Shown here one piece after another: positions 1 through 17,585 of a stretch of DNA of 53,633 nt (positions are counted from its first letter, which is position 1; every line of letters starts with the position of its first letter). Both the position numbers and the translations under genes were made by a program. Origin of the DNA: an uncultured beta proteobacterium (lineage in GTDB: Bacteria; Pseudomonadota; Gammaproteobacteria; Burkholderiales; Burkholderiaceae_C); contig CAIWNX010000230.1 of NCBI GenBank assembly GCA_903914175.1, positions 1 through 53,633 on the forward strand, written 5' to 3'. The notes beneath the pieces are model-generated. The model ran no database searches. It was not told the origin of the DNA and saw only the letters and a program-made list of their open reading frames with translations.

Positions 1-46
1 CGGTCACGACAAACCGGAATGACCGGTCACGATCGACCGGAATACC
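1..46. repeat. Two tandem 23-bp repeats, IS21-end-like
   Basis: Two direct copies lie head to tail with a 23-bp period (1-23 and 24-46). Both follow the pattern CGGTCACGA, three variable bases, then ACCGGAAT. From memory, arrays of GGTCACG...CCGGAAT units are typical of the terminal multiple repeats of IS21-family elements in beta-proteobacteria. No istA or istB is visible, so this would be only a relic or the edge of an element that lies left of the window. The repeat is certain; the IS21 assignment is a recollection. Confidence 0.5.
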
Positions 47-347
47 CAAGTAGTGAGCAATATCTGCCCCTACCAAATATCCACCACGGAAATCAACACT
101 GTTCCAAACTTGCTAGCGTCAAGAACACCGACGACCCCCCAAATACCCCACTTCAAATATCAAAACCTGATGTCGTTCAACGTGTTTGATCATCTTCTGT
201 CGAAATCAGTCCAACACAGCACAGCCGAGATTACAGATCTGTTGGAACACTACTGATTAGCGACCCCCTTTTTACCCCTGTTACCAGATCGTTGTCATCT
301 CAGGTTAGCCACGGGACAGTGGGGCATTGTCATAACAGAGCACCATC
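47..347. other. Non-coding stretch ahead of the integrase
   Basis: About 300 bases without a gene I can support. A GTG-started open frame of 67 codons (53-256) has no ribosome site and no recognisable sequence. The stretch should hold the integrase promoter and possibly the left attachment site. I found no direct repeat shared with the right side of the element, so neither is placed. Confidence 0.4.
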
Positions 348-1559
348 ATGTCTCACATCGCCTTAACACCATCGAACGTGTCAACTCTTGTATGTCCACC
401 CACAAAACGCAGGATCGATGTTCATGACCAGAAAACAAAAGGGCTTGTCCTTGAAATCAGACCAACAGGTGGGAAGACCTATTACCTACGGTACGTTGAC
501 CAACGCGGCCGAACACGCCAAATCAAACTTGCTGACCAACAAGACGTCTCACTTGCACAAGCCAGAGCACTTGCTGATTCTCTGCGAAACAGAGTTGCCG
601 TTGGTGAAGACCCGAATGAACTGAAAGCGGTTGCGCGTTCAACACCAACACTGAACGAGTTCTTCCACAACAGCTATCTTCCATTTGTTAAGGGATACAA
701 GAGGTCATGGGACTGTGACGAGCGCATGTTCAGAAACCATATTGCTCCAAAACTCGGAACCAAATTCCTCGATGAGATTACCAAGGATGACATCATCACA
801 TTACACCGCCAACGTCGAGAATCTGGTGCTGCACCAGCGTCCGCAAACCGCTTGGTAGTGATTCTGCGATACATGTTGAATCTTGCTATCCGCTGGGAAA
901 CACCAGGATTGGTAAAGAATCCGACACTCAACGTCACTCAGTTTGAAGAACACAACAAACGGGAGCGGTTCTTGACCAATGAGGAGGCGCAGCGCTTGTA
1001 CCAAATCGTCAAGCTCAGCGATAACAAGATGCTGCAATACATCGTCGCGATGCTAATTCTGACTGGTGCACGTAAACGTGAGGTTTTGGATGCGAAGTGG
1101 GAAGACTTCGACCTTGTGCATCAATCGTGGAGAATTCCGATGACCAAATCCGGTAAACCGCGTCATGTTCCGATGTCAAACGGCGTATTGGTCCTGTTGA
1201 ACACGATTCCACATTACGACAACTGTCCGTTTGTATTTCCGAACCCAAAAACACGCAAACCGTTTGTGACTGTGTTTGTCGCATGGAACACTGCACGCAA
1301 ACAAGCCGGACTTGCCGAGGTTCGAATGCACGACCTGCGACACAGCTTCGCCAGTTTCCTCGTCAACAATGGACGATCACTGTATGAGGTTCAGAAAATA
1401 TTGGGGCACACCCAAATCAAGACAACTCAGCGATACGCCCACCTTGCGCAAGAAACACTGCTTGACGCCGCAAACACCATAACAGTTTCATTGGGGGATG
1501 CGTTTACACCAGTGATATCAGCGATTCCAAACGCAAAGATGTTGACATCAAATCTCTGA
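348..1559 (+). CDS. Tyrosine recombinase / site-specific integrase
   Basis: A 403-residue phage/island-type integrase that cuts and rejoins DNA at an attachment site. Residues about 1-90 form the arm-binding domain of the DUF4102-like kind (a lysine/arginine-rich start and the KGLVLEIRPTGGKTYYLRY pattern). About 105-200 is the core-binding SAM-like domain. The catalytic domain shows the full set: R242 in TGARKRE, a candidate lysine at K267, HDLRH at 328-332, LGH at 352-354 and the nucleophile Y363 in QRYAHL. Nothing appears truncated, so it should be active. The ATG has only a weak ribosome site. It is followed by the small gene at 1601 in the same direction and by a replication protein, which suggests an integrated replicon or satellite rather than a plain prophage. 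Confidence 0.93.
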   Translation: MSHIALTPSNVSTLVCPPTKRRIDVHDQKTKGLVLEIRPTGGKTYYLRYVDQRGRTRQIKLADQQDVSLAQARALADSLRNRVAVGEDPNELKAVARSTPTLNEFFHNSYLPFVKGYKRSWDCDERMFRNHIAPKLGTKFLDEITKDDIITLHRQRRESGAAPASANRLVVILRYMLNLAIRWETPGLVKNPTLNVTQFEEHNKRERFLTNEEAQRLYQIVKLSDNKMLQYIVAMLILTGARKREVLDAKWEDFDLVHQSWRIPMTKSGKPRHVPMSNGVLVLLNTIPHYDNCPFVFPNPKTRKPFVTVFVAWNTARKQAGLAEVRMHDLRHSFASFLVNNGRSLYEVQKILGHTQIKTTQRYAHLAQETLLDAANTITVSLGDAFTPVISAIPNAKMLTSNL

Positions 1560-1600
1560 CACGGGAAGGTCCCCGTTCCTACACACTACCGGAGTTCCTG

Positions 1601-1882
1601 ATGCCGACGAAACCGACGACTGAAACCGTGACACCACAACCGTTCAACGCAGCAGCTGTTGAACAAGCTGTCCTTGCGGGGATGACCGCAATATCTGATG
1701 GCAAAACCAAAGTCCAAGCAGTCAACGCGATGTTCCCGTTGATTGCCACTGAGCCGAAAAACATCATTTTGAGAGCGTTCATCGATGGTGCCGGTCTGAC
1801 TGAGAAGGGTGCGCTGACCTATCTGTACAACGTCCGCCGTGCCGTCAAGAGGGGGTTGTTGAAAATGTCGACCGACGAATAG
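1601..1882 (+). CDS. Small unknown protein, possible DNA-binding regulator
   Basis: A 93-residue protein I cannot name. The start is the ATG after a GGAG-like site. The first 20 residues are rich in Thr and Pro. The remainder is predicted helical and ends with basic residues (VRRAVKRGLLK). The stretch FIDGAGLTEKGALTYLYN resembles a short pattern (AGLT..GA.TYYYN) that I remember from small phage and plasmid proteins of unknown role. It lies 41 bases behind the integrase and directly before a strong terminator, so it closes that transcript. By position it could be an excisionase or repressor-like control protein; that is inference only. Confidence 0.65.
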   Translation: MPTKPTTETVTPQPFNAAAVEQAVLAGMTAISDGKTKVQAVNAMFPLIATEPKNIILRAFIDGAGLTEKGALTYLYNVRRAVKRGLLKMSTDE

Positions 1883-1901
1883 CGTGTATTCCACGTTTCA
1901 G

Positions 1902-1930
1902 ATGCCCGCCTGTGTGCGGGCATTCTTTTT
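1902..1930 (+). terminator. Rho-independent terminator after the integrase pair
   Basis: A perfect 8-bp stem (ATGCCCGC at 1902-1909 with GCGGGCAT at 1916-1923) has a 6-base loop and is followed by TTCTTTTT. It sits 20 bases after the 93-residue gene and separates the integrase transcript from the replication gene. Confidence 0.9.
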
Positions 1931-2082
1931 GTCTAAAAACAACGGATTCCCGCTGATTAGAAGTATTCTTGACAATAAATATCCGTGGCCGCACATCGGT
2001 GACGAGACTCTTGAGTCCAAATCCTGATCCACTCGTCCTGGTGTGCTGTCAACCCCTATGGACTCGGGATACAGGATCAGCG

Positions 2083-5000
2083 ATGAACAACAAGAAAATC
2101 AAACTGTCGGTGCGTCATGACATCGTCAATAAAGCCAATGAAGCCGAGAAGTTACTGCTCGGCAAGGGATGGAAAAACGTCGAAATCACCGTCGACGAAT
2201 TGATAGATCACATCAAGCAAGGGTTTGCGTACACCCATCAATTTACAGGAGGTCACCGAACCAAGGACAATTTTGTTCTTGCCGACATCTTGATAGCCGA
2301 CATCGACAACGACATCGACAAGGATCCCGACAATTACATGACGATTGAGCAAGCTCTTGCCAATCCACTGGTCAGGGACCATTCAACGTTCATCCACACC
2401 ACTGCACGACACACACCAGAACGCCACCGTTTCCGCATCATCTTTGTTCTCGACAGAACAATCTTCAATGCAAGCGCATACGAAGCGATGTACAGAACAT
2501 TGATGGGGATTATTCCGACCGACCCCGCAACGAAGTCGGTTGCGCAACCGTTTTTTGGGTTTAACCAGACAGAAGTGACCGTAACCGGTAAATCACTGTC
2601 TGATGACAAGATAAACGAGATGGTCAGCCATGAGATGAACCGAATTCACCTCCAATCAGACCCACTATCACCATCAACAATCAAACCAACTTCACTTGTC
2701 AAGACAAGAGCAGGAACACTTCAAGAACTCAGAACATTGGAAGCCAAAACTTCGATTCAATGCCCATTCGGAACACATCCCGACAAGAATTACAGTGCGT
2801 TCGTCAAGGTCAATCAACATAGCACTCGTGGTGTTCAGTGCAGGTCCTGTCAACAGGAGGCTTGGTCCGACAAATTACCAGCGCGTGGCGACTCATTTGA
2901 CACGTTCGATCAACTCGTTATCCAGCATGTCGGCATGGAAAACAGCCATTTCCAATACACCGGACTTGGACTATATGACCACGATTTTGATACGAGCATT
3001 GCGAAGTCGTATTTCCACATCACCAACGCGAAACACGTTTCTATCAGAGATATTGTCCCCGGAATCCACTTGATCAAAAGTGCCAAGGGGACCGGGAAAA
3101 CACACTTCCTCTCAACTGTCGTCGCACACCTCAAACGCCCAGACGTCCGGCGGAAACACAAATTGAAAGATGACCGAACGATTCTGATAGGGCATCGTCA
3201 ATCACTGATCAAGGAAAGTGCCGAGAAATTACAACTTGAGTGCTACCTCGATACAACTGGGCACGACACCAATATTGTGCTCACAGAATCAGGTGGGAAG
3301 GAAATCCGGTCATATTCACAGAAACCACAACACTACGCTATCTGTCTTGACAGTTTATATACCCGTATCGTCCCCAGTCTTGAAAAATATGGGATTGTGA
3401 TCATTGACGAATCTGAACAGGTGTTTTCTCATCTACTGTCAGAGCACATGAAACGGCCAACTGAGAACTTCACAATTTTGTCAAATCTGATAGCGCGTGC
3501 CAAGTTTGTTTATTGCCTTGATGCCGATCTTGATCAAATCACGTTGACCGGAATTATGGCGTGTCTCAGTCACGCCAAGAACCTTGAACGCCACCGGTCA
3601 GAACCGACAGATGAAATCAACATCAAGAACTTCTACTGTCACCTAAACCAGTATAAACAACCAGAGAGAAAGATTGAGTTATTTACCAGTAAAAACCAAC
3701 TGACAGATGATTTACTGTCGAGTGTGACAAATGGACTGAGATGTTTCGTGACCAGCAACAGTAAAAAATACATTGAAGGCCTGTATCAGTCGTTTACCGG
3801 GAATTTCCCCGACAAGAAATTCAAATTAATTACATCAGAGTCAGGGGGTGACCCAGAAGTCAGAGGATTTATTAAAAATATTAAATCTGAAATCCTCAAT
3901 TACGATGCCATTTTCTCATCGCCAACAATTGGAACTGGAATTGACATCACATTTCCTAATAATTCAAAATTAATTGATGGTGTTTATGGGTTCTTCGACA
4001 CGAATATAAACACGCACTTCGACATTGACCAACAAATTGCCCGTGTCCGTCATCCGAAATTCAGCCGTATCTGGATTAATCCCGCACGTCACCGTAAATC
4101 AACAGACAAGAGAGTTATTTGTCGAGAATTACTGATGGGTAGCGACCCGAAAGGTGTGCGATATTTCCTTGACCAAGAGGGATTTCATGCAACTCGTGGG
4201 GAACACCCGTACATGGACCTGGTTACTGAAGTAATTTCAACACAACGGAAGTCAATTAACCAGCTGCGAAACAACTTCATCAAGTACAAACAGAATTCTG
4301 GATGGAGTGTTCATGAAATTGAACAGAACGATGCCAAGAGTGCCCGTGGTTCGATCATCAACCGGGCGAGTCGTGTTGCCCGGAGAAACACCCGGATAGA
4401 CAAGCTGATGAACGCTGTTGTCTTGACCGCCGATGAACAAAATCAAATTCAAAAATCCAAGGAGAAAAACGAAGACGTGACCGTTGGCCAGAATGCGAGT
4501 GTCGAGCGATACTGGATTGAACAGTTTTATAACCAGAAAATTACTGAACAATTAATTGAATTCGATGATGATGAGAAGACACGTGACAAGATCCGACTAC
4601 TTGATCTAGTAACCGAGCCAACAATCAGGTTCACTAATTACGAGCAAATCCGCGTCAAGAACTTGCAGTATATTGAGTTGATGGACTACAAGGCCAGACC
4701 AGTTTTGAAGCCAGACCTCAAACGACTGGTATTCCTGAGAGAACTGTTCATCGCCGCCGGGATTTACGACAACACGACGTTTCAGTTCAAGTTGGATGCG
4801 ATGTATGACACCAACTCGTTATCCGATTTTATTGCCGTGATCAAGAAACACAAAGAACGGTACGCCCAACTGTTTGACAATGAGGTTCACGAACACATCG
4901 ATGAGAGACCAGTAAACCAATTACACACGATCTTAAAACTGGTTGGACTGTGCCACTCTATAACCAAGAAAAATCGAGGTGCCGGTTCAGGACCATCGAA

Positions 5001-5124
5001 ATACCAAATTGACAGTGACCGCCATGCCCTGATTATGGGGATTGTTGCCGGCCGACGGGTCAGAACAAAGGCCGCCGCTGACGCCGCGAGGGCCAAACTG
5101 GAACTACAAGATAGGTTGGAATAA
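2083..5124 (+). CDS. Primase-helicase replication protein (AEP + zinc ribbon + SF2)
   Basis: A 1013-residue protein with three parts. Residues about 30-190 look like an archaeo-eukaryotic primase: the acidic pair D73/D75 in ADIDND, the basic strand RHRFRIIF near 115-121, and PFFGF near 156-160. About 227-256 is a zinc ribbon (CPFG...H, then CRSC). From about 325 there is a superfamily-2 helicase core: Walker A SAKGTGKTH (333-341), motif II IIDESEQ (440-446), YCLDADLD, motif V SPTIGTGIDI (613-622) and motif VI QQIARVRH (650-657). The helicase recalls herpes-type origin-binding proteins and the CyRepA1 plasmid replication family. The expected role is priming and unwinding at the element's own origin, perhaps the repeats just downstream. 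I chose the ATG preceded by AGGAT; a TTG at 1969 would add 38 unlikely residues. Codon use is AT-richer than in the host genes. Confidence 0.82.
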   Translation: MNNKKIKLSVRHDIVNKANEAEKLLLGKGWKNVEITVDELIDHIKQGFAYTHQFTGGHRTKDNFVLADILIADIDNDIDKDPDNYMTIEQALANPLVRDHSTFIHTTARHTPERHRFRIIFVLDRTIFNASAYEAMYRTLMGIIPTDPATKSVAQPFFGFNQTEVTVTGKSLSDDKINEMVSHEMNRIHLQSDPLSPSTIKPTSLVKTRAGTLQELRTLEAKTSIQCPFGTHPDKNYSAFVKVNQHSTRGVQCRSCQQEAWSDKLPARGDSFDTFDQLVIQHVGMENSHFQYTGLGLYDHDFDTSIAKSYFHITNAKHVSIRDIVPGIHLIKSAKGTGKTHFLSTVVAHLKRPDVRRKHKLKDDRTILIGHRQSLIKESAEKLQLECYLDTTGHDTNIVLTESGGKEIRSYSQKPQHYAICLDSLYTRIVPSLEKYGIVIIDESEQVFSHLLSEHMKRPTENFTILSNLIARAKFVYCLDADLDQITLTGIMACLSHAKNLERHRSEPTDEINIKNFYCHLNQYKQPERKIELFTSKNQLTDDLLSSVTNGLRCFVTSNSKKYIEGLYQSFTGNFPDKKFKLITSESGGDPEVRGFIKNIKSEILNYDAIFSSPTIGTGIDITFPNNSKLIDGVYGFFDTNINTHFDIDQQIARVRHPKFSRIWINPARHRKSTDKRVICRELLMGSDPKGVRYFLDQEGFHATRGEHPYMDLVTEVISTQRKSINQLRNNFIKYKQNSGWSVHEIEQNDAKSARGSIINRASRVARRNTRIDKLMNAVVLTADEQNQIQKSKEKNEDVTVGQNASVERYWIEQFYNQKITEQLIEFDDDEKTRDKIRLLDLVTEPTIRFTNYEQIRVKNLQYIELMDYKARPVLKPDLKRLVFLRELFIAAGIYDNTTFQFKLDAMYDTNSLSDFIAVIKKHKERYAQLFDNEVHEHIDERPVNQLHTILKLVGLCHSITKKNRGAGSGPSKYQIDSDRHALIMGIVAGRRVRTKAAADAARAKLELQDRLE

Positions 5125-5139
5125 CTGTAGAGGTGGCCA

Positions 5140-5183
5140 GTCTTGTTGGGTACTGCGTACCCAACAAGACGGACTGCGTCCGT
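5140..5183. repeat. Twin hairpins with identical TGC loops
   Basis: A perfect 14-bp inverted repeat (GTCTTGTTGGGTAC, 5140-5153; its complement 5157-5170) closes on a TGC loop. It shares two bases with a second perfect stem, ACGGAC (5169-5174) with GTCCGT (5178-5183), which also has a TGC loop. They start 15 bases after the primase-helicase stop. No run of T follows, so this is not a standard terminator. It may be part of an origin or a protein-binding site. Confidence 0.75.
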
Positions 5184-5218
5184 GGGGTATTAGACGGTTA
5201 GTATTGAGGGGCCAATAC

Positions 5219-5298
5219 CGGGTTTCCACCAGATTCCATCTAATCCAGTATTCTGTCCAGATTCCGTCCAGAATTTCGGGTTTCCACCGGGTTCCATC
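5219..5298. repeat. Iteron-like direct repeats, 58-bp period
   Basis: Two 22-base copies of CGGGTTTCCACC-R-G-R-TTCCATC (5219-5240 and 5277-5298) match at 20 of 22 positions. Between them is a 6-bp inverted pair, ATTCTG (5250-5255) and CAGAAT (5269-5274), and further TTCC(A/G)TC-like pieces continue to about 5330. Spaced direct repeats behind a replication-protein gene are what an iteron origin looks like. The function is inferred. Confidence 0.6.
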
Positions 5299-5343
5299 GG
5301 GTCTAACTTTGGGTTCCCGCCAGGTCCCATTTTCAGGGGAAAC

Positions 5344-5425
5344 GAGGGGGGAGTAAAACTGTTCTATTCTCTATAAACAAACACACCCCCTATTACTCCC
5401 CCCTCCCTTCTCTCACACCTCCCCC
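5344..5425. repeat. 13-bp inverted repeat and C-rich tract
   Basis: GAGGGGGGAGTAA (5344-5356) is repeated inverted and without mismatch as TTACTCCCCCCTC (5393-5405), with 36 bases between. The right arm lies in a pyrimidine tract holding four C-runs (5386-5390, 5398-5403, 5405-5407, 5421-5425), so the minus strand has four G-runs that could form a long-loop quadruplex. The remainder of the gap to 5561 is AT-rich and shows no convincing -35/-10 pair, although TTGACA occurs at 5482. Confidence 0.6.
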
Positions 5426-5561
5426 TCGATTTTCACCCGCAAATTCCAGTCCGATTAAAACAACATTTAACCCGGCTTTATTTGACATTAATTCGGATTA
5501 TTCTGGTTGTTTTCAGTCGAATAAATATTGGCTCCAGATATACCACAGGAGGACCGTTTCG

Positions 5562-5744
5562 ATGACTAATAACGAAGTAAAAGCCGCAGTAGCCGCCCCG
5601 AACTCGACAATCCTGTCAGAGTCAATTTCCCTGTTTCAGCGCAACTTGCCGACTGAAGGAGCCGCGTGGTTACGGCTTGTTGAAACCAAGGCGAAACAGT
5701 TGAAGAAGGGCAAGGTGGTTCTGATTGCCGTGATCAGTGATTAA
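5562..5744 (+). CDS. Small unknown protein (60 aa)
   Basis: Sixty codons starting at an ATG with a near-perfect ribosome site (AGGAGGA, 5547-5553, 8 bases before the start), which is the main reason to believe it. The protein has an uncharged first half and a basic stretch (ETKAKQLKKGK) before a hydrophobic end (VVLIAVISD). I recognise no family. Its TAA overlaps the stop of the convergent DUF6447-like gene, so the two reading frames share three bases. Base composition resembles the integrase/primase segment on its left more than the surface-layer genes on its right, so I assign it to the mobile element. Confidence 0.6.
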   Translation: MTNNEVKAAVAAPNSTILSESISLFQRNLPTEGAAWLRLVETKAKQLKKGKVVLIAVISD

Positions 5745-5965
5745 CCAAGTTTCAGCGTGTCCCCAGCAAATGGCGGCGGTGGTGCGGCAAGCGCTTCGTT
5801 AAGCGCCTTGGAATACGCGATCCGGGCAGTTTGAAGCACGGCGGCTTGTGCTTGCAGGCGTTGCAGTTCTGCTTCTACATACTGCAGCATTTGAAGCTGG
5901 TTCTTGGCCTCAGCGGACAGTTTGTCGAGTTCGTATTCTTGGTTGTCGATCTTGATGATGGGCAT
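5741..5965 (-). CDS. DUF6447-like small protein
   Basis: A 74-residue protein with the look of DUF6447: a short beta start (MPIIKIDNQEYELDKLS) and then one long helix (AEAKNQLQMLQYVEAELQRL and on to about residue 60) with heptad character, ending in a Pro-rich tail. The function of the family is unknown to me. It lies downstream of the surface-protein gene on the same strand but behind that gene's terminator, so it probably has its own promoter or depends on read-through. Its stop codon overlaps that of the mobile-element gene on the other strand. Confidence 0.75.
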   Translation of the reverse strand: MPIIKIDNQEYELDKLSAEAKNQLQMLQYVEAELQRLQAQAAVLQTARIAYSKALNEALAAPPPPFAGDTLKLG

Positions 5966-5983
5966 GACTGTGTACCTAAATTG

Positions 5984-6014
5984 AAAAACCCCACTGCCTT
6001 GCGAGCAGCGGGGT
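5984..6014 (-). terminator. Terminator of the surface-protein gene
   Basis: Read on the minus strand, ACCCCGCTGC (6014-6005) pairs with GCAGTGGGGT (5997-5988), with one A-C mismatch and a 7-base loop, followed by TTTT. It lies about 55 bases after the surface-protein stop and before the DUF6447-like gene. Confidence 0.8.
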
Positions 6015-6032
6015 CTGAGAGGTTTTCACCTG

Positions 6033-6057
6033 CACCCCTTGCCGAAGCAGAGGGGTG
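6033..6057 (-). repeat. Second hairpin after the surface-protein stop
   Basis: CACCCC (6033-6038) pairs with GGGGTG (6052-6057) and the inner TGC/GCA pair closes on a CGAA loop. It has no T-run and stands 12 bases after the stop codon, ahead of the terminator. It may protect the 3' end of a very abundant mRNA. Confidence 0.55.
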
Positions 6058-6069
6058 AAACCAAAGTGA

Positions 6070-9000
6070 TTAGGCGATGCCGACCAAGCCGGTAACCGTT
6101 GTATTCATCGAGGGTGCCGCGCTGACATAACCAACCAGGACAACGGTTTCAAAGACACCGGAGCCAATATCCCATGTCATCGTGCTATCGAGACCTGCAG
6201 CGGAATACGAGAATGTTCCAGCGACGCCATCGTATGTACCTGTAGCAAACGCAACTTTACCAGCAAGACCGGCCAAGTTCGTGTTGGTAACCGCCGTAGA
6301 CGGATTCACACCAAGAGAGCCAGTGAGGTTGAACAAGTCTGTCGATGTCAGACCCGTAATCACGTCAAATGTACCCGTCAGCTCGCTAATTGCAGAAGTC
6401 GTGGTTGTGTTGACACCGGTGTCCGAGTTGTTGGTGTACATCAGCAAATTGTGGCCGCCGGACACAGTGATCTTATCAGCACCGCCACCGCCAGTGATGA
6501 TGTCGGTACCACCGCCGCCAACGATCACGTCGGCTGCGCTACCGCCAACGATCACGTCAGAACCCGTGCCGCCCGTGACGGTCTGGATACCAGCAGAACC
6601 TGCATGCGTGAAGCTGTTATTGCCGTTACCCAAGGTTACGGTGTTGGCCTTGCCGTTGATACCCGTGATGACATCGTTGCCGGCGCCACCTGTGTATGTC
6701 ACGCCAAACGCAACTGCCGCATTGAAGTTGACGGTGTTGTTCTGCGTTGCACTGCCGGTGATGGTTGCGGCTGCTGCGAAAGCGGGTGTAGTCCAATCGA
6801 AGTCAGCCAACAGTGAGGAACTGGCGGTGATAGCAGTAACACCTGTCAGACCACTTGCGTTGACAGACGTAATCAACGTAGCGCTAGGAGTTGCCAAATG
6901 CAAACCGGCGTTACCCGAAATTGTCAAAGTCTTCAGCGCAGTGTCAGTCAGCGACAGTGTATGGAAAGTTGCGGCACTCGACGAGTCGGTCGATGTGATG
7001 GCAACGGTTTCGATGCCACTTGCTGTCAATGTCTTCGTGAGAGTACTTGTCGCATCGAAACCAACAGTACCCGTCAGCGTCAAGGCCAACGAATCCGAAG
7101 TGCCGGTTGCATCTAGCAAGCTGTAGGTAATATTCGCAGCTGGTGCCCCAGTCAACGTCAGTGGCGTTGCAGCGGCGACACTGCTAAATGTGACATCACC
7201 ACCCAATGGTCCTGCCTTCAGCGCCGTAATGCCAGAGATCCGGCTCATGATGAATTCACCGCTAGAGCCGCTGTCAAGTGCAAGAGTCTCAAAGTTGGTG
7301 AGCTTTGCACCTGTAGCAGCTGTCAGCAGGGTAGCTGCTGCGCCGCTGAGCACAATAACGTCCGCCGTACCGGCACCGCCACTAATCGCCTTCGTAGCAG
7401 CCTGAGTTATCGTGACGGTATCAACACCTGAACCGCCCGCGTACGTTGTGCCGGTGGATGTCGGGTTGATCGAAACAGTCACCGGACCCGTAGCGCCACT
7501 TGCGTCGATGGCAGTCACTGTGGTCGAGCCAGCCAAGCTGGCCGTGCTCAAACCACCAGCGCCCGAAACGGTCACACCCGTCAGCGCGTTGGCGCCGAGA
7601 GTAAGGGTCGTCAGCGCCGAGCCGTTCACCGTCAATGCTGTCATAGCAGCTGCATTCAAATTTGTGACGGTCAGGGCCACATCGCCACCAATCGTGACAC
7701 TGGTCGCAGCAGCGGCCGACAAAGTCGTGATCGTGCTTGCAGTACCGGTACTTGTCACGTTCAGTGTGGTGACGGTGTCGTCAGTCACAACAGAGTTAAT
7801 TGCCAACTTATTGACTGTCAAACCCAGCGTTGCCGACTTGACTGTCGCTGCGTCGACCACTGTGACATCTTTGGCAGAATTGGCCAGGGACAAAGTGGTA
7901 AGGCCATTGCTGTTAATAACGCTGCTCACACCATAACCACTCAGGGTCGCGGAGGTGATCGTGTTGGCCGCTGTAAGGCTTGCACTGTTCTTGTCGGATA
8001 CGATCACAGTGCCGTTAATTACGCCGTCTACTGCTGCAACCGCAGCGACTCCAGTTACACCGAAGCCAGCGCCACTACCTGGGATAGTTGCAACTAAAGT
8101 AGACCCAGCCGTTGTAGCCACGGTACCCAATGTACCAGCCGCTATTGGTGCTGCTGTTGCACCAGCGGTGGTTGCCGTGAACGTCACAGCGTTGCTGGCA
8201 ACTGCACTTGTCGACCATCCGACCAATTTACCAGAATAGGTGCCCAGCGCGTACGCCGACCCGATGGTGGCTCCATCCGCCAAACTCGCAAATACCGTAG
8301 CAAGTTGCGCTTGAGTCAAAGCCCCGGTACCAGACGTAAACGAGAGCCCGCCCTCTGAAACGGTGACACCGGCACCCAGCCCTGCAACGCCAGCGGTCAC
8401 GATATCAGCTTGTGCTACTGCTACTGTCGCAGCTACAGAACCAACACCAGTAACTGGCGCAGTCTGAGTCACGGTGACAGCGGTCGTAGCTGCACCACCA
8501 TTGACGGTAACGGAACCACCTGTGGCATTCACTGCACCCAGACCACCACCAGCAATAACTCCAGAAGTACCGCCGGTAATGTTTTGGGTGACGTTAACTG
8601 TCGTACCACCCGCCACTGTCACTGCGCTACCCGCCACAGCTGTCGTATTCACGTCAGAAACCGTCGCAGTGATCGCGCCAGCAGTCGTAGAACTACCGAT
8701 CGTGACCGTTCCGCCGGTTGTCACGCCGGCTGCAGTTGCGGTGAGCACCTTGCCGCCGGTAACCGAGAATGCAGTCGCAGCAGTAGTAGCTGACGTCACG
8801 GTCGCGTCTGTTGTAACAGCAGCGACCACTGTCGTCGTACCAACGCTCGCGGCGGTCAGAGAAGTAAGGCCGGTCCAAGCTGTCGTATTGGCGGTGAGTG
8901 TGCCCGAAGCAGTCAGAGTAGCCGTAGCGATGTTCTTGACAACAGCATTTGTTGGGTTGGCGTTAATGTTGGCGGCGACCGACGCGACCAATGTGTTGGT

Positions 9001-9630
9001 TCCAGCGCCACCATCAATATTGTCCAGAGCCGTCAGTGTCAAAGCCGAGTTGTCGGTGCTGTTGGCGACGAACGTATCGTTAAGCGCACCACCAACGAAG
9101 TTGTCAACACCAGCAGTGAGCGGATAGGTCGTGCCAATGGTTGCATCAGGCGGTGTAGCCACACCAGACACGCTACCTGCAGTGGTAGCGTGATTGAAGT
9201 CAGCCAGCGCCTGGGTGTTGTAGGTGGTTGCAGCGGCGCCATAGACGTCCGTTGTGCCAGCCAGGTTGCTGATGATTTCGCTCAACTGAGCAACCACCGT
9301 GCCGCGCGATGCGACGCCAACCGATGTCAGATAGTTTGCAACTGCGCCTTGCAAGGCGGCGTAAGCAATAGCGCCAGTCACCGTGGGGGTGACGGTGGAA
9401 GTTGTCAGCGTGGTGGCGCTGATGCCCATGTTGCCAAGGATCAACGTGGCAAAAGCAGAGTCGCTCAGGGTGCTGAAGCCTGAAGCCATTTGATTGGCCC
9501 AGACAAAGCCGTCGGTGGTGCCAATCTGTGCGATGTAGCTGGTGTACAGCGCATTGCCGGGTGCCTGACCGTACAGCGCCTGATAGACGTGGACAGCAAC
9601 TTCTGAAGAGCCTGTAATTTGAGATGCCAT
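6070..9630 (-). CDS. S-layer / RTX-like surface protein
   Basis: A 1186-residue protein with no cysteine, dominated by Ala, Thr, Gly, Val and Ser, as in bacterial S-layer proteins. Residues about 1-160 form an N-terminal domain like that of many Comamonadaceae secreted proteins (VYQALYGQAPGNALYTSYI, DUF4214-like), followed by a first calcium-type stretch (DNFVGGALNDTF). A long Thr/Ala beta region fills the middle. Near the C-terminus come clear RTX nonapeptides (GGAGNDVITG, GGTGSDVIVGG, GGGGTDIITGGGGADKI). There is no Sec signal peptide, which fits type I secretion with a C-terminal signal, as in Caulobacter RsaA. No type I exporter is in the window. The ATG has AAGGA before it. Expected to coat the cell, held by calcium and perhaps by polysaccharide. 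Confidence 0.82.
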   Translation of the reverse strand: MASQITGSSEVAVHVYQALYGQAPGNALYTSYIAQIGTTDGFVWANQMASGFSTLSDSAFATLILGNMGISATTLTTSTVTPTVTGAIAYAALQGAVANYLTSVGVASRGTVVAQLSEIISNLAGTTDVYGAAATTYNTQALADFNHATTAGSVSGVATPPDATIGTTYPLTAGVDNFVGGALNDTFVANSTDNSALTLTALDNIDGGAGTNTLVASVAANINANPTNAVVKNIATATLTASGTLTANTTAWTGLTSLTAASVGTTTVVAAVTTDATVTSATTAATAFSVTGGKVLTATAAGVTTGGTVTIGSSTTAGAITATVSDVNTTAVAGSAVTVAGGTTVNVTQNITGGTSGVIAGGGLGAVNATGGSVTVNGGAATTAVTVTQTAPVTGVGSVAATVAVAQADIVTAGVAGLGAGVTVSEGGLSFTSGTGALTQAQLATVFASLADGATIGSAYALGTYSGKLVGWSTSAVASNAVTFTATTAGATAAPIAAGTLGTVATTAGSTLVATIPGSGAGFGVTGVAAVAAVDGVINGTVIVSDKNSASLTAANTITSATLSGYGVSSVINSNGLTTLSLANSAKDVTVVDAATVKSATLGLTVNKLAINSVVTDDTVTTLNVTSTGTASTITTLSAAAATSVTIGGDVALTVTNLNAAAMTALTVNGSALTTLTLGANALTGVTVSGAGGLSTASLAGSTTVTAIDASGATGPVTVSINPTSTGTTYAGGSGVDTVTITQAATKAISGGAGTADVIVLSGAAATLLTAATGAKLTNFETLALDSGSSGEFIMSRISGITALKAGPLGGDVTFSSVAAATPLTLTGAPAANITYSLLDATGTSDSLALTLTGTVGFDATSTLTKTLTASGIETVAITSTDSSSAATFHTLSLTDTALKTLTISGNAGLHLATPSATLITSVNASGLTGVTAITASSSLLADFDWTTPAFAAAATITGSATQNNTVNFNAAVAFGVTYTGGAGNDVITGINGKANTVTLGNGNNSFTHAGSAGIQTVTGGTGSDVIVGGSAADVIVGGGGTDIITGGGGADKITVSGGHNLLMYTNNSDTGVNTTTTSAISELTGTFDVITGLTSTDLFNLTGSLGVNPSTAVTNTNLAGLAGKVAFATGTYDGVAGTFSYSAAGLDSTMTWDIGSGVFETVVLVGYVSAAPSMNTTVTGLVGIA

Positions 9631-9888: not shown

Positions 9889-11217
9889 CTACCAGCCCAT
9901 ACGCAAACCCGTGTAGACGCCCCAGTTGTCCTGCCGAAAGAGCGCCAGACTGCTGCTTTGCGCAACTTTCTCTGCACCAAAAGTCCATTGCATCGCGTTG
10001 AAAAAGGGATGCTGGTATTCCAACCGGGCCGCATGGCGCGATATAGAACGTGTGCGCACACTATCAATTAATTCGCTGTAAATGCTGGAATCATCTTGAT
10101 GGCTCAGTTCAAAATCGGCCAATAAACCGCTGCCTCGCACACCTGTAATAGGCCAGTAACCACTCAAGCGCAGGCTGTCTTGGTGCTGATCGCCGCCCGG
10201 CCGCGCAGCATCAACGGCAAGGTCACGGCCCGTCTTCAAACCCAACAGCCACTGCATTCCCGACGCTTGTTCACAGGACAAAAAGCTTGTCAGCCCCCTG
10301 TAGCGTCCAGACAACACTTGGTTATTTAGATAGTTGCGGTCCTGCCATTCGCCACCCAGGCGCGCCTCACAAACGGCGCTGCTGCCGTGCCAGGCACGAC
10401 CCCAACCGCCTGCCAGCGCAAACGCCACGTAGCGGGTACCGGTCTGCGACGCGAGGCCTGAGGCACTGGCGCTGACAAAGCTGCCGCCTGCGCCGGTGGC
10501 GGTGTTGCTGCGTTCGGCCAGCAAGTCGAGTTGACTGGAACCTGCCTCCGATACAACCGCGCTGTAGCGGTGCCGCAGGCTGGCCACCGCCTCCCAGCGC
10601 GCGCCATCGGGGGCGTTGCGACGCAAATCAAGTTGGGCGTCGGCACGTACATAGCTGCCGCTGCGCGCGAGGTAGCTGGCGTCAAGCGGCAGCACCACGG
10701 TCTGGCCCGCCAGCGTCAAAGACAGACTGTCAAGATTGGGGGAGCCCATCAGATTGCTGTCATAGCCAACCCGGCTGGCCAACGTGATTCGACTCTGCCA
10801 GCGACCCGGATCCGCCAGCGTTGCCACGGCGTTTTGCTGGCGCTGTATCAAGGTGCGCAGTTCCGCGGGCAGGGTGCGGTCCGCCAGCAAGTTGTCAAGC
10901 AGCGCTGCGGCAGAAAGAGGGTCTCCGCTGCCGGTCAATGCAATGGCGTAGCTGAGTTGCGCGTCTTTGAGGCTTGGGTCGAGCATCAGGGCGCGCTCGA
11001 GATGATCAGCCGCTTCGAGGTAGCGCCCTTCATTGTTAAGTTTCTGGCCCAGGGTTGCCAAAAAGAGCGCGTCTTTTTGGCACGCCGGCACGGCGCTGAG
11101 CATTTGCGGCAAAGATGCGCCGGCGCTGGTGCAGGGGTTACTGTCCTGCGCCTGGGCCGCAGCAGCCAGCCCAAGCGAAGCCAACAGTCCGAACAAGCGG
11201 GCCAATACCCAGGTCAT
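9889..11217 (-). CDS. TPR and outer-membrane beta-barrel protein
   Basis: A 442-residue protein with a Sec signal peptide (hydrophobic run to AQAQ, about 24). Residues about 50-140 carry tetratricopeptide-like helices (NNEGRYLEAADHLERALMLDP). From about 155 to the end there are alternating beta strands finishing in GLRMGW, an aromatic end typical of outer-membrane barrels. The layout, TPR plus a barrel, is like DUF560/Slam surface-assembly proteins; that is a resemblance in architecture, not a firm assignment. It is the last gene of an operon with the cyclase, 12 bases behind it, with a GGGGGA ribosome site. It could help place surface proteins or polymer outside the cell. Confidence 0.7.
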   Translation of the reverse strand: MTWVLARLFGLLASLGLAAAAQAQDSNPCTSAGASLPQMLSAVPACQKDALFLATLGQKLNNEGRYLEAADHLERALMLDPSLKDAQLSYAIALTGSGDPLSAAALLDNLLADRTLPAELRTLIQRQQNAVATLADPGRWQSRITLASRVGYDSNLMGSPNLDSLSLTLAGQTVVLPLDASYLARSGSYVRADAQLDLRRNAPDGARWEAVASLRHRYSAVVSEAGSSQLDLLAERSNTATGAGGSFVSASASGLASQTGTRYVAFALAGGWGRAWHGSSAVCEARLGGEWQDRNYLNNQVLSGRYRGLTSFLSCEQASGMQWLLGLKTGRDLAVDAARPGGDQHQDSLRLSGYWPITGVRGSGLLADFELSHQDDSSIYSELIDSVRTRSISRHAARLEYQHPFFNAMQWTFGAEKVAQSSSLALFRQDNWGVYTGLRMGW

Positions 11218-11229
11218 TGCGTCCCCCGC

Positions 11230-13242
11230 TCAGTGAAGGTTGGGCGCAGAAAATTGCGCGGCATGGAGCGGGTAAGCGTAGATGTGGTGCGGGGTGCGCA
11301 TGCCGTCCAGCAAAAAAGTGCCCATCGACTCAAGCCCGGCACCGCCAACTTGGGCGGCCAGGCCTTCACCGACCAGAATCGGATGCGCCAGTTCGGCCGT
11401 CATCTCAACCAGGCGGCTGGCGATGGTGACGGTGCGCCCCATTACCATGTGGGTTCGCCGACTGGCCAGGCCGAACGAGCCGGCCATGGCGGGCCCGGTT
11501 TCAGCGCCGATGCCCAGCGACAAAGGCTCCAGACCCGCTGGGGCCGGATCGGGCAGCACGCCCTGCATGGTGGCCTGCAGTTGAATGGCCGCCTGCAACG
11601 CTCGCTGGGCGTGGTCTCCAGCGCTACTGCCGTCAGTTGTGCTGCCACTTGCAGGTTCGCCGTTCCAGACCGCCAGAATGGCATCGCCCTGAAAGGCTTC
11701 GATGACACCGCCGTGGGCTTCCACGACACGGGTTGCCGTGGAAAAGAAGGCATGCAGCACCGCCGCAGATTCTTCCGGCGGTCTGGCTTCCAGGTAGGCA
11801 GAGAAATTGCGGATGTCGGCAAACAGCACCGACACCTGGTTGGTGCTGGCCCTGATTGCGCTCGAAGGTGCTTGCAATGCCAGTGCCGCCGCCACTGGGG
11901 CTGGCAGGTAACTCGAGAGGTGGGTGTAGAGGCGGTCGCGGTCGAGGCGACTTTTGGCGTGCTCCAGAATGCCCATGGCCGAGCCGGTAATCAGCACAAA
12001 CAGCGCCGGGTCAAACCAGCCCAGCCAGAGGGCATTGCGACTCAGCAGCAGGGCATGGCCGACCCACAGCAGGATGCTCCATAGCCCCGCCAGCAGCGGC
12101 AAAAAAACCACTGGGAAGCGTCGCCGGCGAAAAGGGTTTTGCGTCGGCTTGCGCGTCAGCAAAAGCAGGAGCGCAGCACCGATGCCAGCTGCCAAAACCT
12201 GCACTGCGGGCGTGCCGCGCGGCGTGTAGGGGGTGCGCCCGTCGATCAAGGCGGTGATGACCTGGGCGTGCACTTGTAGGCCGGAGCCAGCGCCGCCAAA
12301 CGGCGTGGCGATGGCGTCATTCAGGCCAAAGGCGCTGCTGCCCAGCAAAACCCAGGCGCCTTCAAGCAGGCCGCGTGGCACACGCCCGGCCAGCACGTCG
12401 GCGGCTGACAGGCTGATGAAGCTGTCGGGGTGCAGGCGCCAGGAGACGCGCAGGTCACCGCGTTCGTCCAGCGGGATCGATCCGAGCGCAAGGCCTGGGG
12501 CGCTGAGTTTCCAGGGCGCCTCCAACCAGCCACTGCCGCGTTCAAACGCAAGTGCATGTTCATTCGCGCCGTGCATCAGGGCCACCAGGCCCAACGCCGG
12601 GTAAGACTTGCCCTGAAAACAGATGACAGCAGGTTGGTGGCGCACAAAGCCGTCGCTGGCAATGCGCGGCGTGATGTGACCAACGCTGGTTGCCACTGGC
12701 GCTGTAGCCACTGCACCCGGGACTGGAAGCGCACCGAGCGCGGCGAAATTTGCCAGGTACCCGCTGGCCGTTCCAAAGGGTGCCGGGCAGGTGGGCCAAT
12801 CGAGTGCACCGGCAAGTTGCCCGACCTGCGGCTGGCCCCCCTGCTCCAACGCAAACACCTGGGCCAGCACCGCTCGCCGCTGCTGCACGGCTTGCACCAG
12901 CGCAGCGTCATCGGCTTGTGGGTCGGTAAAAACAATATCAAGAATTTGCTGCTGTGCGCCCAGCGCCGAAATCTGCTGTAGCAATTTGGCCTGGGTGGCG
13001 CGCGGCCAGGGCCAGGGGCCAACCTCGTGCAGGCTGCGCTCATCAAGATCAACGACGATCAGGCGGCGCTCGTCCTTGCGCTCGGCACCCAGACGCCAGA
13101 CTACGTCACCGGCGCGCTCTTCAAGCTGCGACAACACGGTACCTGCCGCAAAGTGCAGCAGCGCCCATATCAGGCTGGCCAGCAGCAGGCTAAGCGCAAA
13201 GACGCCGTGTCGGCGCAACCATGACAAACTGCCGAACGTCAA
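11230..13242 (-). CDS. CHASE2-domain adenylate/guanylate cyclase
   Basis: A 670-residue membrane sensor enzyme. An N-terminal membrane segment (about 13-32) precedes an extracytoplasmic CHASE2 domain (about 40-320, with DLDERSLHEVGPWPWPR). Three membrane segments follow (about 345-435). The C-terminal class III cyclase domain shows both metal aspartates, in VLFADIRNFS and FQGDAILAVW. It makes cAMP or cGMP in response to an unknown periplasmic signal. It starts at a TTG directly after the fecR-like stop codon, so the two are translationally coupled. The neighbouring Crp-type regulator is an obvious candidate target, but cyclase specificity cannot be read reliably here. Confidence 0.88.
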   Translation of the reverse strand: MTFGSLSWLRRHGVFALSLLLASLIWALLHFAAGTVLSQLEERAGDVVWRLGAERKDERRLIVVDLDERSLHEVGPWPWPRATQAKLLQQISALGAQQQILDIVFTDPQADDAALVQAVQQRRAVLAQVFALEQGGQPQVGQLAGALDWPTCPAPFGTASGYLANFAALGALPVPGAVATAPVATSVGHITPRIASDGFVRHQPAVICFQGKSYPALGLVALMHGANEHALAFERGSGWLEAPWKLSAPGLALGSIPLDERGDLRVSWRLHPDSFISLSAADVLAGRVPRGLLEGAWVLLGSSAFGLNDAIATPFGGAGSGLQVHAQVITALIDGRTPYTPRGTPAVQVLAAGIGAALLLLLTRKPTQNPFRRRRFPVVFLPLLAGLWSILLWVGHALLLSRNALWLGWFDPALFVLITGSAMGILEHAKSRLDRDRLYTHLSSYLPAPVAAALALQAPSSAIRASTNQVSVLFADIRNFSAYLEARPPEESAAVLHAFFSTATRVVEAHGGVIEAFQGDAILAVWNGEPASGSTTDGSSAGDHAQRALQAAIQLQATMQGVLPDPAPAGLEPLSLGIGAETGPAMAGSFGLASRRTHMVMGRTVTIASRLVEMTAELAHPILVGEGLAAQVGGAGLESMGTFLLDGMRTPHHIYAYPLHAAQFSAPNLH

Positions 13243-15541: not shown

Positions 15542-16354
15542 ATGACTTTGCGTACTCTACTTTCCTATTTGTTCCCGTGGCGCTACGCTGGCTTGATCGG
15601 GCAGTTTGTCAGACGCGAATTCCACGCGCGCTATCGGCAATCGACGCTGGGCGTGCTTTGGGCCTTTCTGACGCCGCTCTTGATGCTGGGCGTGTACACA
15701 CTGGTGTTCCGCTTCATTTTCAAACTGCGCTGGGGTGGCGTTGGCACTGAGAGTGATCTGACCTTTGCGCTGCGCATGTATGCCGGCCTGTCGGTTTTCA
15801 ATTTCTTTGCCGAGTGCGTGAACCGCGCGCCACGTCTGATTCTTGACCAGCCACATCTGGTCAAGAAAGTGATCTTCCCACTGGAAATATTGGCCTGGGT
15901 CAACGTGCTGGCGGCACTGGTCCACCTGGGCGTGGCGTTGCTGTTGTTGCTGGTGTTTGGCGCCTGGGATATGGGCACTTTGCCGCTGACCGTGCTGGCA
16001 CTGCCCCTGGTCTGGCTGCCCCTGCTGCCGCTGTGTGCAGGTCTGGGCTGGCTGCTGGCTGCCGTTGGAACCTATGTGCGCGACGTGAGCCAGATACTGG
16101 GCCTGCTGGTAAGCCTGATGATGTTTTTAAGCCCGATCTTCTTCCCGATGGAGGCATTGCCGGCGGCCGTCAAGCCGTGGATGTTTCTGAACCCTTTGGC
16201 CTTGACGATCACGCAGACACGCCAAGTGTTGCTTGACGGGCAATGGCCGAACTGGCCGGCGTTTGCGCTTCATTTGGCAGCCTGCTGCGCCATTGCATTG
16301 CTCGGCGCGGCTTTTTTCCGGCTTGCGCGCAAGGGGTTCGCCGATGTCGTCTGA
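15542..16354 (+). CDS. wzm: Polysaccharide ABC exporter permease
   Basis: A 270-residue ABC-2-type inner-membrane permease with about six membrane segments and the N-terminal signature of the Wzm/KpsM/TagG group (VRREFHARYRQSTLGVLWAF). With the next gene it moves undecaprenyl-linked O-antigen or a related glycan to the periplasm. Its stop overlaps the wzt start by 11 bases, so the two are coupled. It opens the glycan cluster; no wzx or wzy is seen, so export should be ABC-dependent. Confidence 0.92.
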   Translation: MTLRTLLSYLFPWRYAGLIGQFVRREFHARYRQSTLGVLWAFLTPLLMLGVYTLVFRFIFKLRWGGVGTESDLTFALRMYAGLSVFNFFAECVNRAPRLILDQPHLVKKVIFPLEILAWVNVLAALVHLGVALLLLLVFGAWDMGTLPLTVLALPLVWLPLLPLCAGLGWLLAAVGTYVRDVSQILGLLVSLMMFLSPIFFPMEALPAAVKPWMFLNPLALTITQTRQVLLDGQWPNWPAFALHLAACCAIALLGAAFFRLARKGFADVV

Positions 16355-17585
16355 GTTTGCCATTCGGGCGCAGCAATTAGGCAAGTGCTACAACCTGTAC
16401 GAGCACGAAGGCGACCGGCTCAAGCAGTTGCTTTGGGGTCGTTGGCGCGATCCGAATCGTCCCTATTTCCGCGAGTTCTGGGCGCTCAAGGATGTGGACT
16501 TTGCCATTGCGCCCGGCGAGGTGGTTGGCATCGTGGGGCGCAACGGCGCTGGCAAATCGACCCTGCTGCAGATGGTCTGCGGCACCTTGCAGCCCAGCAG
16601 CGGCAATCTGCAGGTGAACGGACGCGTCGCGGCGCTGCTGGAACTGGGCGCGGGCTTCAACCCCGATTTCACCGGCATCGAAAATATCTACATGAACGCA
16701 GCCATTCTGGGTCTGAGCAGGGCGCAGGTGGATGATCGGCTGCAAAGCATTTTGGACTTTGCCGACATTGGCGACTTCATCCGCCAACCGGTCAAGACCT
16801 ACTCCAGCGGCATGTACATGCGACTGGCGTTCGCCGTGGCCACCAGCGTGGAGCCTGATATTTTGGTGATCGACGAGGCGCTTTCGGTTGGCGACGGCGC
16901 TTTCGCCCGCAAGTCGTTTGACCGCATCATGGGGATGAAAGACGCCGGCAAGACGATTTTGTTCTGCTCGCACTCGATGTACCAGGTGGAGGCGCTGTGC
17001 TCACGCGCGATGTGGATCGAAGGCGGCAAGCTGCGCATGATCGGCTCCGCTGCGGATGTAACCAGCGCCTACCAGACCAGTCTGAACGCCAGCGCACCCG
17101 GGCCAACTGGCACGCGGGCGGAGGCGAAAGCAGTTTTTTCTGGTCAAGCGGCCATTGCCGCGCCGCCGGGCAGCGGAAGAATCAATCGGATTTTTGCCAG
17201 CGTGCACGGGCTGTCGGGCCGTGAACTGAATCTGGTCTCGGGTGAAACGGATTTACAGATCACGATGGATTTTTCGGTTGACCCCATGCTACCGGCACCC
17301 AGTGTGGCATTTGGATTTTCTGATGAAAATAATCTGACGATCGCCAGTGTGCTGTCGATCAATGATGGCTTCAATCTGCAGATAGATGCCAACGGACATG
17401 GTCGGGCTGCGGTTTTTTTTCCACGGCTGCCGCTCCTGAAAGGGCGCTACACCGTGACTGGCTTTTTGGCTTGCGAGAAGGCCTTGCACCTGTATGAGCA
17501 AGTGGACTCCAGTCTGATACTCAACGTGACGCAAAAGGGGTTGGAGCAGGGACTGGTGACTTTGCCCCACAGGTGGCAAGCATGA
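16344..17585 (+). CDS. wzt: Polysaccharide ABC exporter ATPase with Wzt C-domain
   Basis: A 413-residue ATPase. The N-terminal half shows Walker A GRNGAGKS (65-72), signature YSSGMYMR (153-160), Walker B ILVIDEAL (173-180) and the switch histidine H210. Residues about 270-413 form a beta-sandwich of the Wzt_C type (FFPRLPLLKGRYTVTGFL near the end), which in E. coli O8/O9a reads the capped end of the finished chain. The presence of this domain suggests the glycan carries a terminal modification, for which the methyltransferases of this cluster are candidates. The ATG follows AAGGGG. A longer frame upstream exists but overlaps wzm heavily and is not used. Confidence 0.93.
   Translation: MSSEFAIRAQQLGKCYNLYEHEGDRLKQLLWGRWRDPNRPYFREFWALKDVDFAIAPGEVVGIVGRNGAGKSTLLQMVCGTLQPSSGNLQVNGRVAALLELGAGFNPDFTGIENIYMNAAILGLSRAQVDDRLQSILDFADIGDFIRQPVKTYSSGMYMRLAFAVATSVEPDILVIDEALSVGDGAFARKSFDRIMGMKDAGKTILFCSHSMYQVEALCSRAMWIEGGKLRMIGSAADVTSAYQTSLNASAPGPTGTRAEAKAVFSGQAAIAAPPGSGRINRIFASVHGLSGRELNLVSGETDLQITMDFSVDPMLPAPSVAFGFSDENNLTIASVLSINDGFNLQIDANGHGRAAVFFPRLPLLKGRYTVTGFLACEKALHLYEQVDSSLILNVTQKGLEQGLVTLPHRWQA

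Follow-up and report, generated by a model that had tools for sequence, protein, structure and literature searches.

Near the left edge of a 53,633-nucleotide contig (CAIWNX010000230.1, assembly GCA_903914175.1) from an uncultured beta proteobacterium of the Burkholderiaceae_C lies a small group of genes encoding a tyrosine integrase (Int), a short protein (ORF93), and a large replication protein (Rep) that combines an archaeo-eukaryotic primase (AEP) domain, a zinc ribbon and a UL9-type helicase. Behind rep come iteron-like repeats, a 60-aa open reading frame (ORF), and the genes for a DUF6447-like protein and a long RTX protein (Table 1). The window, by which the whole stretch is meant here, is a contig in a genome of 322 contigs; its right part reads as chromosome, with a glycyl-tRNA synthetase and glycogen genes, and no tRNA gene was found in it. 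A sequence-only reading of this DNA had proposed that positions 348 to 5744 are an integrating plasmid or phage satellite, AT-richer than its surroundings and reduced to copying and moving itself. The guanine-plus-cytosine content is indeed 0.470 at 49-5500 against 0.629 at 33000-53633, and int and rep very probably form one mobile element. This element is probably an integrated replicon, able to exist as a circle and to copy itself, and its ends would lie in a short core found within genes for coat-like proteins; taken as a whole, replicon and coat-gene ends together, we hold this statement to be moderately probable.

Table 1. Features at the left of the window, with positions on the forward strand.
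Feature	Position	Strand	Remark
IS21-family insertion sequence, end	1..48		contig starts inside the insertion sequence
First nine core bases, CTCACTACT	49..57	-	at the edge of the insertion sequence; proposed left end
Int, tyrosine integrase, 403 aa, with arm-binding domain	348..1559	+	Phage_integrase 4e-31, Arm-DNA-bind_3 1e-14
ORF93, small protein	1601..1882	+	family accompanies 7 of 31 Rep relatives
Rep, 1,013 aa	2083..5124	+	ATG at 2083; AEP primase, zinc ribbon, UL9-type helicase, C-terminal part
Rep domains (residues)			AEP primase ~1-180; zinc ribbon C227, H232, C253, C256; UL9-type helicase ~320-660
Perfect 14-bp inverted repeat	5140..5170		directly 3' of rep
Four iteron-like copies, ~27 nt, 28-33 nt apart	5214..5331	+	candidate origin
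60-aa ORF	5562..5744	+	paralogue elsewhere in the genome, on contig C13
DUF6447-like protein, 74 aa	5741..5965	-	23.5 bits (below cut-off 27); paralogues on C13
RTX protein, 1,186 aa	6070..9630	-	gene holds core at 9104-9120
Attachment core in RTX gene	9104..9120	-	one mismatch, in frame, codons LTAGVD; proposed right end

The helicase part of Rep belongs to the NCBIfam family CyRepA1 (NF042913; 290.5 bits over residues 327-956, cut-off 200), and the protein matches PHROG 4913, annotated as "replication," at 4e-63. With AlphaFold2 models of good quality in the N-terminal region (mean pLDDT 91.6 for residues 1-266 and 78.9 for the whole), Foldseek places the origin-binding protein of HSV-1 (UL9) at its top rank (2e-16). 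A search with an alignment profile likewise matches UL9 at 4e-14, the single sequence scoring 14.8 bits against Pfam UL9/Herpes_ori_bp, below the cut-off of 20. For the N-terminal model, the sole match under 0.001 is the AEP domain of the cyanophage S-2L PrimPol (5.5e-6). AEP motif I (hhhDhD) is found at D73 and D75, both invariant in a 20-row alignment, with D-x-D present in 21 of 24 aligned proteins, and the A-R-H at 108-110 fits motif II (sxH); the position of motif III (hD/E) is uncertain. A further motif, DAxRxFFG, has its R in many relatives and a Q in the window, and its equation with motif IV of PrimPol-PV1 is uncertain. The zinc ribbon residues C227, P228, H232, and C253 are invariant in the alignment. 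The primase that had been read from the sequence is thus borne out, but it is of the archaeo-eukaryotic kind and not of the DnaG/Toprim kind.

When an AEP profile built from 20 proteins was applied to the 29 proteobacterial loci passing the coverage filter, 26 matched; 19 of the 20 are among those counted. It also matches a Bradyrhizobium plasmid protein and, at 5e-33, that of the Leptospira phage LE1, with weaker matches in three viral contigs; it matches neither N15, VP882, and ARM81 nor any of the 14 cyanobacterial rows listed. No N-terminal DUF3854 or Toprim-related domain was matched in Rep by Pfam. Because an AEP domain stands here where the cyanobacterial CyRepA proteins are described as carrying DUF3854, Rep is, on its domain make-up, of a primase-UL9 type distinct from theirs.

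The region behind rep, from 5140 to 5410, is dense in repeats, as the sequence-only reading had noted. Four copies of the 27-nt unit is a number reached by none of 60 and none of 40 shuffles, and the inverted repeat stands beside them. Repeats placed right behind rep outdo all shuffles for the window and for two of 28 relatives (L074 and L077, where L denotes a locus and G, below, a genome); a match at L080 falls within a coding region, and that at L097 stood out under just one of three settings. Elsewhere in the same genome there are no copies of 5125-5562, and for 49-347 there are just matches of 15-22 nt (E 1 or worse).

Does this module recur, and does it travel? Among 333 Rep relatives the best 80 were kept, giving 31 proteobacterial loci, several of them on short contigs. 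A recombinase accompanies rep in 24 of the 31 (tyrosine in 20, serine in 9), against none of 30 random 20-kb stretches and one, a tyrosine recombinase, of 48 cyanobacterial CyRepA1 loci; the recombinase profile, built on the 31 loci and seven others, may favor them, and it also served for the controls. With that single tyrosine recombinase in 48, the cyanobacterial loci were dropped as candidates for further elements of the kind. The integrase and primase-helicase thus recur as neighbors in other Proteobacteria. ORF93 has a relative in 7 of the 31 loci, one of these relatives being truncated where its locus ends, and these seven are the very loci whose integrase is 364-388 aa long; in the helicase tree the window Rep is sister to two of the seven, L080 and L075 (SH-aLRT 95). 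A look for the same gene at the same site in relatives, run in part, found the full Rep in its own genome alone among 89 genomes of the genus, beside a partial match in G016, and found the window locus in none of 60 relatives searched. Scans of genome and viral contigs with the single protein returned no Rep relatives; those with the alignment found them.

Three of these loci have attachment repeats of their own: 48 identical nt in a tRNA-Arg, 11,142 bp apart (L091); 45 nt with two mismatches in a tRNA-Gly, 17,559 bp apart (L096); and 21 nt, alike but for one mismatch and separated by 9,757 bp, of which a first copy adjoins int and the second lies in part of a tRNA-Gly by our own reading, which ARAGORN did not call (L088). 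The other 16 of the 19 loci searched gave nothing, or a 15-nt match alone (L095, L102). In 9 of the 31 Rep loci, a match to comM starts or ends at reference residues 171-186, at or near Walker A, with one half visible per locus. This comM (yifB) gene is cut in L076, L079, L084, L087, L089, L092, L093, L099, and L102, several of them with a large serine recombinase, and rep adjoins the start of comM in L090 and L100. comM is already known as a target of other elements, according to the accessible part of one study (PMC11472951); a literature search whose coverage left most subscription journals outside found no publication on CyRepA-type elements in comM.

Some neighbors of these loci were seen by eye. 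The 17.6-kb Paraburkholderia element of L096 carries a seeming reverse transcriptase and a ParA-like gene (15998-16960 and 3788-4732). Genes resembling type I restriction-modification systems lie beside the Gallionella locus L080 (1716-8118) and the Devosia locus L088 (1-5603), in the latter outside the attachment repeats. At the Methylobacter locus L075 (7660-9225), an abutting ComEC-like gene seems to lack its N-terminal part, possibly another competence gene used as target.

The closest relatives of Int, at 54-59% identity, lie outside the Rep loci. Among 399 genomes of the order, 17 others match Int at 1e-60, one of them with two copies, and four other genomes of the genus match it at 1e-50; since scoring stopped after three or four candidates in each genome, absence from this search is weak evidence. 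The locus set comprises 24 members, 22 from genomes and two from plasmids, these two being the neighborhoods examined among the 3,263 plasmid records in which an integrase was matched. In the Int tree, the window groups with the same-genus L255 and with L066 (support 89) inside a clade of 15 rows (96), of which eight are labelled as cut coat-gene loci, including L248, which is not cut beside int. A small conserved protein (CPSLSGRSxLxYxLG, by eye) is found near integrases of this clade in L065 (8536-9102), L250 (4156-4674), and L251 (13985-14419).

It is beside these integrases that the coat genes come into view. In 8 of the 24 Int loci (L244, L247, L254-L257, L267, and L065), an S-layer-like frame lying 223-1,630 nt from int lacks its N-terminal part and opens with the codons LTTGxD, or with a near variant of them, where the core DNA is CTCACTACTGGTGTTGA. 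In 30 random stretches there was one S-layer-like frame, the motif not being at its start; S-layer-like is here a criterion of amino-acid composition, with looser limits for the Int loci than for the random stretches. That these coat-like genes serve as S-layer genes would follow from their composition and RTX repeats. At 11 of 12 core sites, the pair LT is spelled CTCACT, against 3 of 232 other LT pairs in these frames; three of the 12 sites (the sites joined to an N-terminal part in G713 and pA62H2, and that of L248) were found by the DNA pattern, and CTCACT stands in eight of the nine others. Because of this bias in spelling, the core looks conserved as DNA and not as protein alone. Three loci (L245, L246, and L249) end before a coat frame could show. 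In L253 (G690:C48, ~11170-12630), a flagellin gene next to an integrase of the clade that includes Int is truncated, the beginning of its N-terminal region being absent, which hints that flagellin and other surface genes may also be attachment sites. No publication on S-layer genes as attachment sites was found in the literature search already mentioned, with the same coverage.

Two relatives have both cores. In G713, identical 20-nt cores stand at 18310 and 33972, 15,662 bp apart, with a DUF927-Toprim helicase and int between them. The first lies inside a frame of 1,212 codons with an N-terminal DUF4214 domain, 190 codons of which precede the core, and the second opens a frame of 1,551 codons without an N-terminal part; another S-layer-like frame, ending at 23583, is separate from the 1,212-codon one. 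In the Pseudomonas plasmid pA62H2 (L065), the cores stand at 5763 and 13435, 7,672 bp apart and alike in 15 of 17 bases, with VapE and int between them. All four cores are in frame. Two further genomes carry the same core within a coat gene. The frame of G615 runs through the identical 20 nt, with 169 codons before and 340 after to the contig end; its part behind the core is 79% identical (345 columns) to the cut-off half of G713, and its part before the core has no match there. In G581, of the same genus as G713, the N-terminal part is 61% identical to that of G713, and the C-terminal part is 73% identical, over its first 168 residues, to the part joined to G713's N-terminal part. Since the halves of G615 and G581 match those of G713 differently, C-terminal coat parts are exchanged at the core.

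Returning to the window, the core in the RTX gene, at 9104-9120, is its only place within three mismatches of the core sequence, and none of 100 shuffles gives such a match. On the same strand, CTCACTACT at 49-57 occurs nowhere else in the window and lies 291 nt from the int start, to be compared with core-to-int distances in L254 (246 nt), L256 (262 nt), L255 (609 nt), L257 (613 nt), and L244 (1,684 nt). The chance of finding these nine bases in 49-347 on either strand is ~7e-4, as computed after the fact. Both the order (coat gene, helicase, small ORF, int, core) and the strands agree with G713. With a partial and a near-full core, and an order and strands like those of G713, the element is likely to be 49-9120 (~9.07 kb), including DUF6447 and the C-terminal part of the RTX protein. 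Residues ~171 onward of this protein would be the element's coat cassette, and residues 1-170 the host part. The left core, we infer, was later cut by an IS21-type insertion, which may have made this copy immobile. Bases 1-48 are repeated in many relatives as an insertion-sequence end, and they were assigned to the IS21 family because, in L273 and L274, a pair of such ends flanks frames that by eye are of the IstA and IstB types. The boundaries 348 and 5744 are therefore probably wrong. Nor can the segment be said to hold only the genes first listed, since the contig begins inside the insertion sequence and the part further left is unseen; "minimal" falls as well, with the left end lost there and the element probably reaching 9120.

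Several observations weigh against coat-gene ends. The left remnant is nine bases alone, and 49-57 read as a 17-mer has five mismatches, a figure equalled or bettered at 19 other places of the window. In the window's own genome, a search for the displaced coat-gene half matched just the window gene itself. Eleven of the 24 Int loci have no coat-like frame, including the close L250-L252 and L066 together with seven distant ones, and none of the 31 Rep-relative loci has an S-layer-like frame. Both cores are present in just two of the eight cut loci; G687 and G658 show no second core within 57 kb, and the others are on short contigs. In L255, tRNA genes ~1.5 kb behind int are a misfit with a full element, and the frame of L248 that holds the core is 6 kb away from int and begins 85 codons ahead of the core. 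Finally, G615 and G581 carry the core with no such integrase listed (at most four candidates per genome scored), so that the core in the RTX gene is by itself no proof of insertion.

These points bear most directly on the alternative that the replicon is integrated from 49 to ~5,500, or further left, with ends unrelated to the coat core and the RTX gene a mere host neighbor. The use of tRNA sequences or comM by the Rep relatives, the close Int relatives lacking a coat frame, and the partial left core all speak for it. We nonetheless consider it unlikely: Int falls within the clade that uses the core, CTCACTACT stands at the insertion-sequence edge upstream of int in the expected orientation, and the RTX core is the window's sole near match, whereas no repeat of at least 9 nt joins 49-347 with 5100-5760, which is why the pair of ends first proposed between those regions was dropped.

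Int might instead belong to the coat locus, as a recombinase that shuffles halves of coat genes beside an unrelated, remnant replication gene. In G687, G658, and L255, int does sit beside a cut coat gene with no second core or full element, and C-terminal parts do recur with differing N-terminal parts at the core. This is improbable, since two cores enclose both int and a replication helicase in G713 and in pA62H2, and since 20 of the 31 Rep loci have an integrase adjoining the Rep-type gene, though these integrases are of another clade. A phage satellite or decayed prophage, suggested by the presence of the helicase family in the phage-plasmids N15, VP882, and LE1, is very improbable indeed, because virion and packaging families gave no match among the window proteins scanned, N15 and VP882 lack the AEP domain, and the best phage integrase among the matches listed is 30.8% identical to Int.

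The six window proteins scanned gave no match to capsid, relaxase, or partition families, in keeping with the sequence-only reading; the 74-aa DUF6447 protein scores 0.006 against MobI, below that family's cut-off. In the visible part, 49-9120, neither relaxase and type IV secretion genes, as an integrative and conjugative element would have, nor packaging or capsid-interference genes, as a phage satellite would have, were recognised. Int, ORF93, and Rep gave no match to PADLOC defence families. Of the two possibilities first offered, the satellite finds no support, and the integrating plasmid, with its integrase, its primase-zinc ribbon-helicase, and its candidate origin, is well supported by profiles, structures, recurrence, shuffles, and attachment repeats.

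How might the integrated replicon work? Int would recombine at the core encoding LTTGxD within S-layer-like or RTX genes, as its relatives suggest, and by joining two cores would excise the segment as a circle. Rep would then bind the repeats behind its own gene, its UL9-type helicase opening the DNA and its AEP domain laying primers, with elongation left to the host polymerase. On integration, the N-terminal part of the host gene would be fused to the element's cassette because the core preserves the reading frame; the host promoter and N-terminal part would drive the new C-terminal part, and the old one would be left beyond int without a start.

Such an element resembles several known systems without coinciding with any. 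AEP primases fused to helicases, one group of which is remotely SF2/UL9-like, are described in cryptic integrated elements in the accessible part of PMC5862659. According to the same text, the PrimPol-PV1 elements are, like the window's, bacterial and equipped with tyrosine or serine integrases, and one class lacks phage and conjugation genes. The sites named in that part are tRNA, intergenic regions, GMP synthase, and tmRNA; coat genes and comM are unnamed in it. With the CyRepA1 plasmid proteins, Rep has its helicase part in common (290 bits; PMC10079941, PMC10899382, as far as their accessible text goes). CyRepA is described in that of PMC10079941 with an N-terminal, Toprim-related DUF3854 and on cyanobacterial plasmids, whereas the window has AEP and a chromosomal setting beside an integrase. 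The Rep of Leptospira LE1-type phage (KF114878, AGS80647.1; 3890-6847 in L209) shares both an AEP-type domain (5e-33) and the helicase family, but it belongs to a phage genome, and its helicase is distant, on a long, unsure branch of the tree. N15 and VP882 share the helicase family and differ in giving no match to the AEP profile and in being phage genomes; VP882 has an annotated protelomerase near its Rep gene. The minimal replicon of pRN1, with its small regulator, its Rep, and an essential stretch just downstream, recalls the window in layout; pRN1 is an archaeal plasmid (PMC4234260, accessible part). The elements of G713 and pA62H2 have integrases of the same clade, two in-frame cores in coat-like genes, and a replication helicase; they differ in having DUF927-Toprim or VapE in place of the AEP-UL9 Rep.

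The smaller genes deserve a word. Of the two small proteins ascribed to the element by the sequence-only reading, the one at 1601-1882 is confirmed as ORF93, which is without match in Pfam, NCBIfam, and PADLOC and for which no plasmid relatives were matched. The other, at 5562-5744, goes instead with the RTX/DUF6447 gene set, since its paralogue on C13, 64-66% identical, sits beside DUF6447 and RTX genes. On that contig, a short RTX gene (L073, G000:C13, 2964-3602) adjoins copies of the small ORF and of DUF6447; the first 40 residues of its product are similar to ORF93 (E 3e-4), and it may be a scar left by another element of this sort.

Beyond this single locus, the chances seem evenly balanced that there is a family of replicons which uses an in-frame motif of coat genes as its site, and whose integration and excision exchange the exposed part of the coat. 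We would give equal credence to the view that, in this family, the integrase is constant and the replication module exchangeable, be it AEP-UL9 Rep, DUF927-Toprim, or VapE. If true, this would tie together the replication of cryptic elements, the fusion of a herpes-type helicase with an archaeal-type primase in bacteria, and the variation of surface coats, and it would offer a testable mechanism for the exchange of S-layer-like outer parts across species, with a defined core sequence. Surface proteins are often phage receptors, so the arrival of such an element could also alter the susceptibility of its host to phages.

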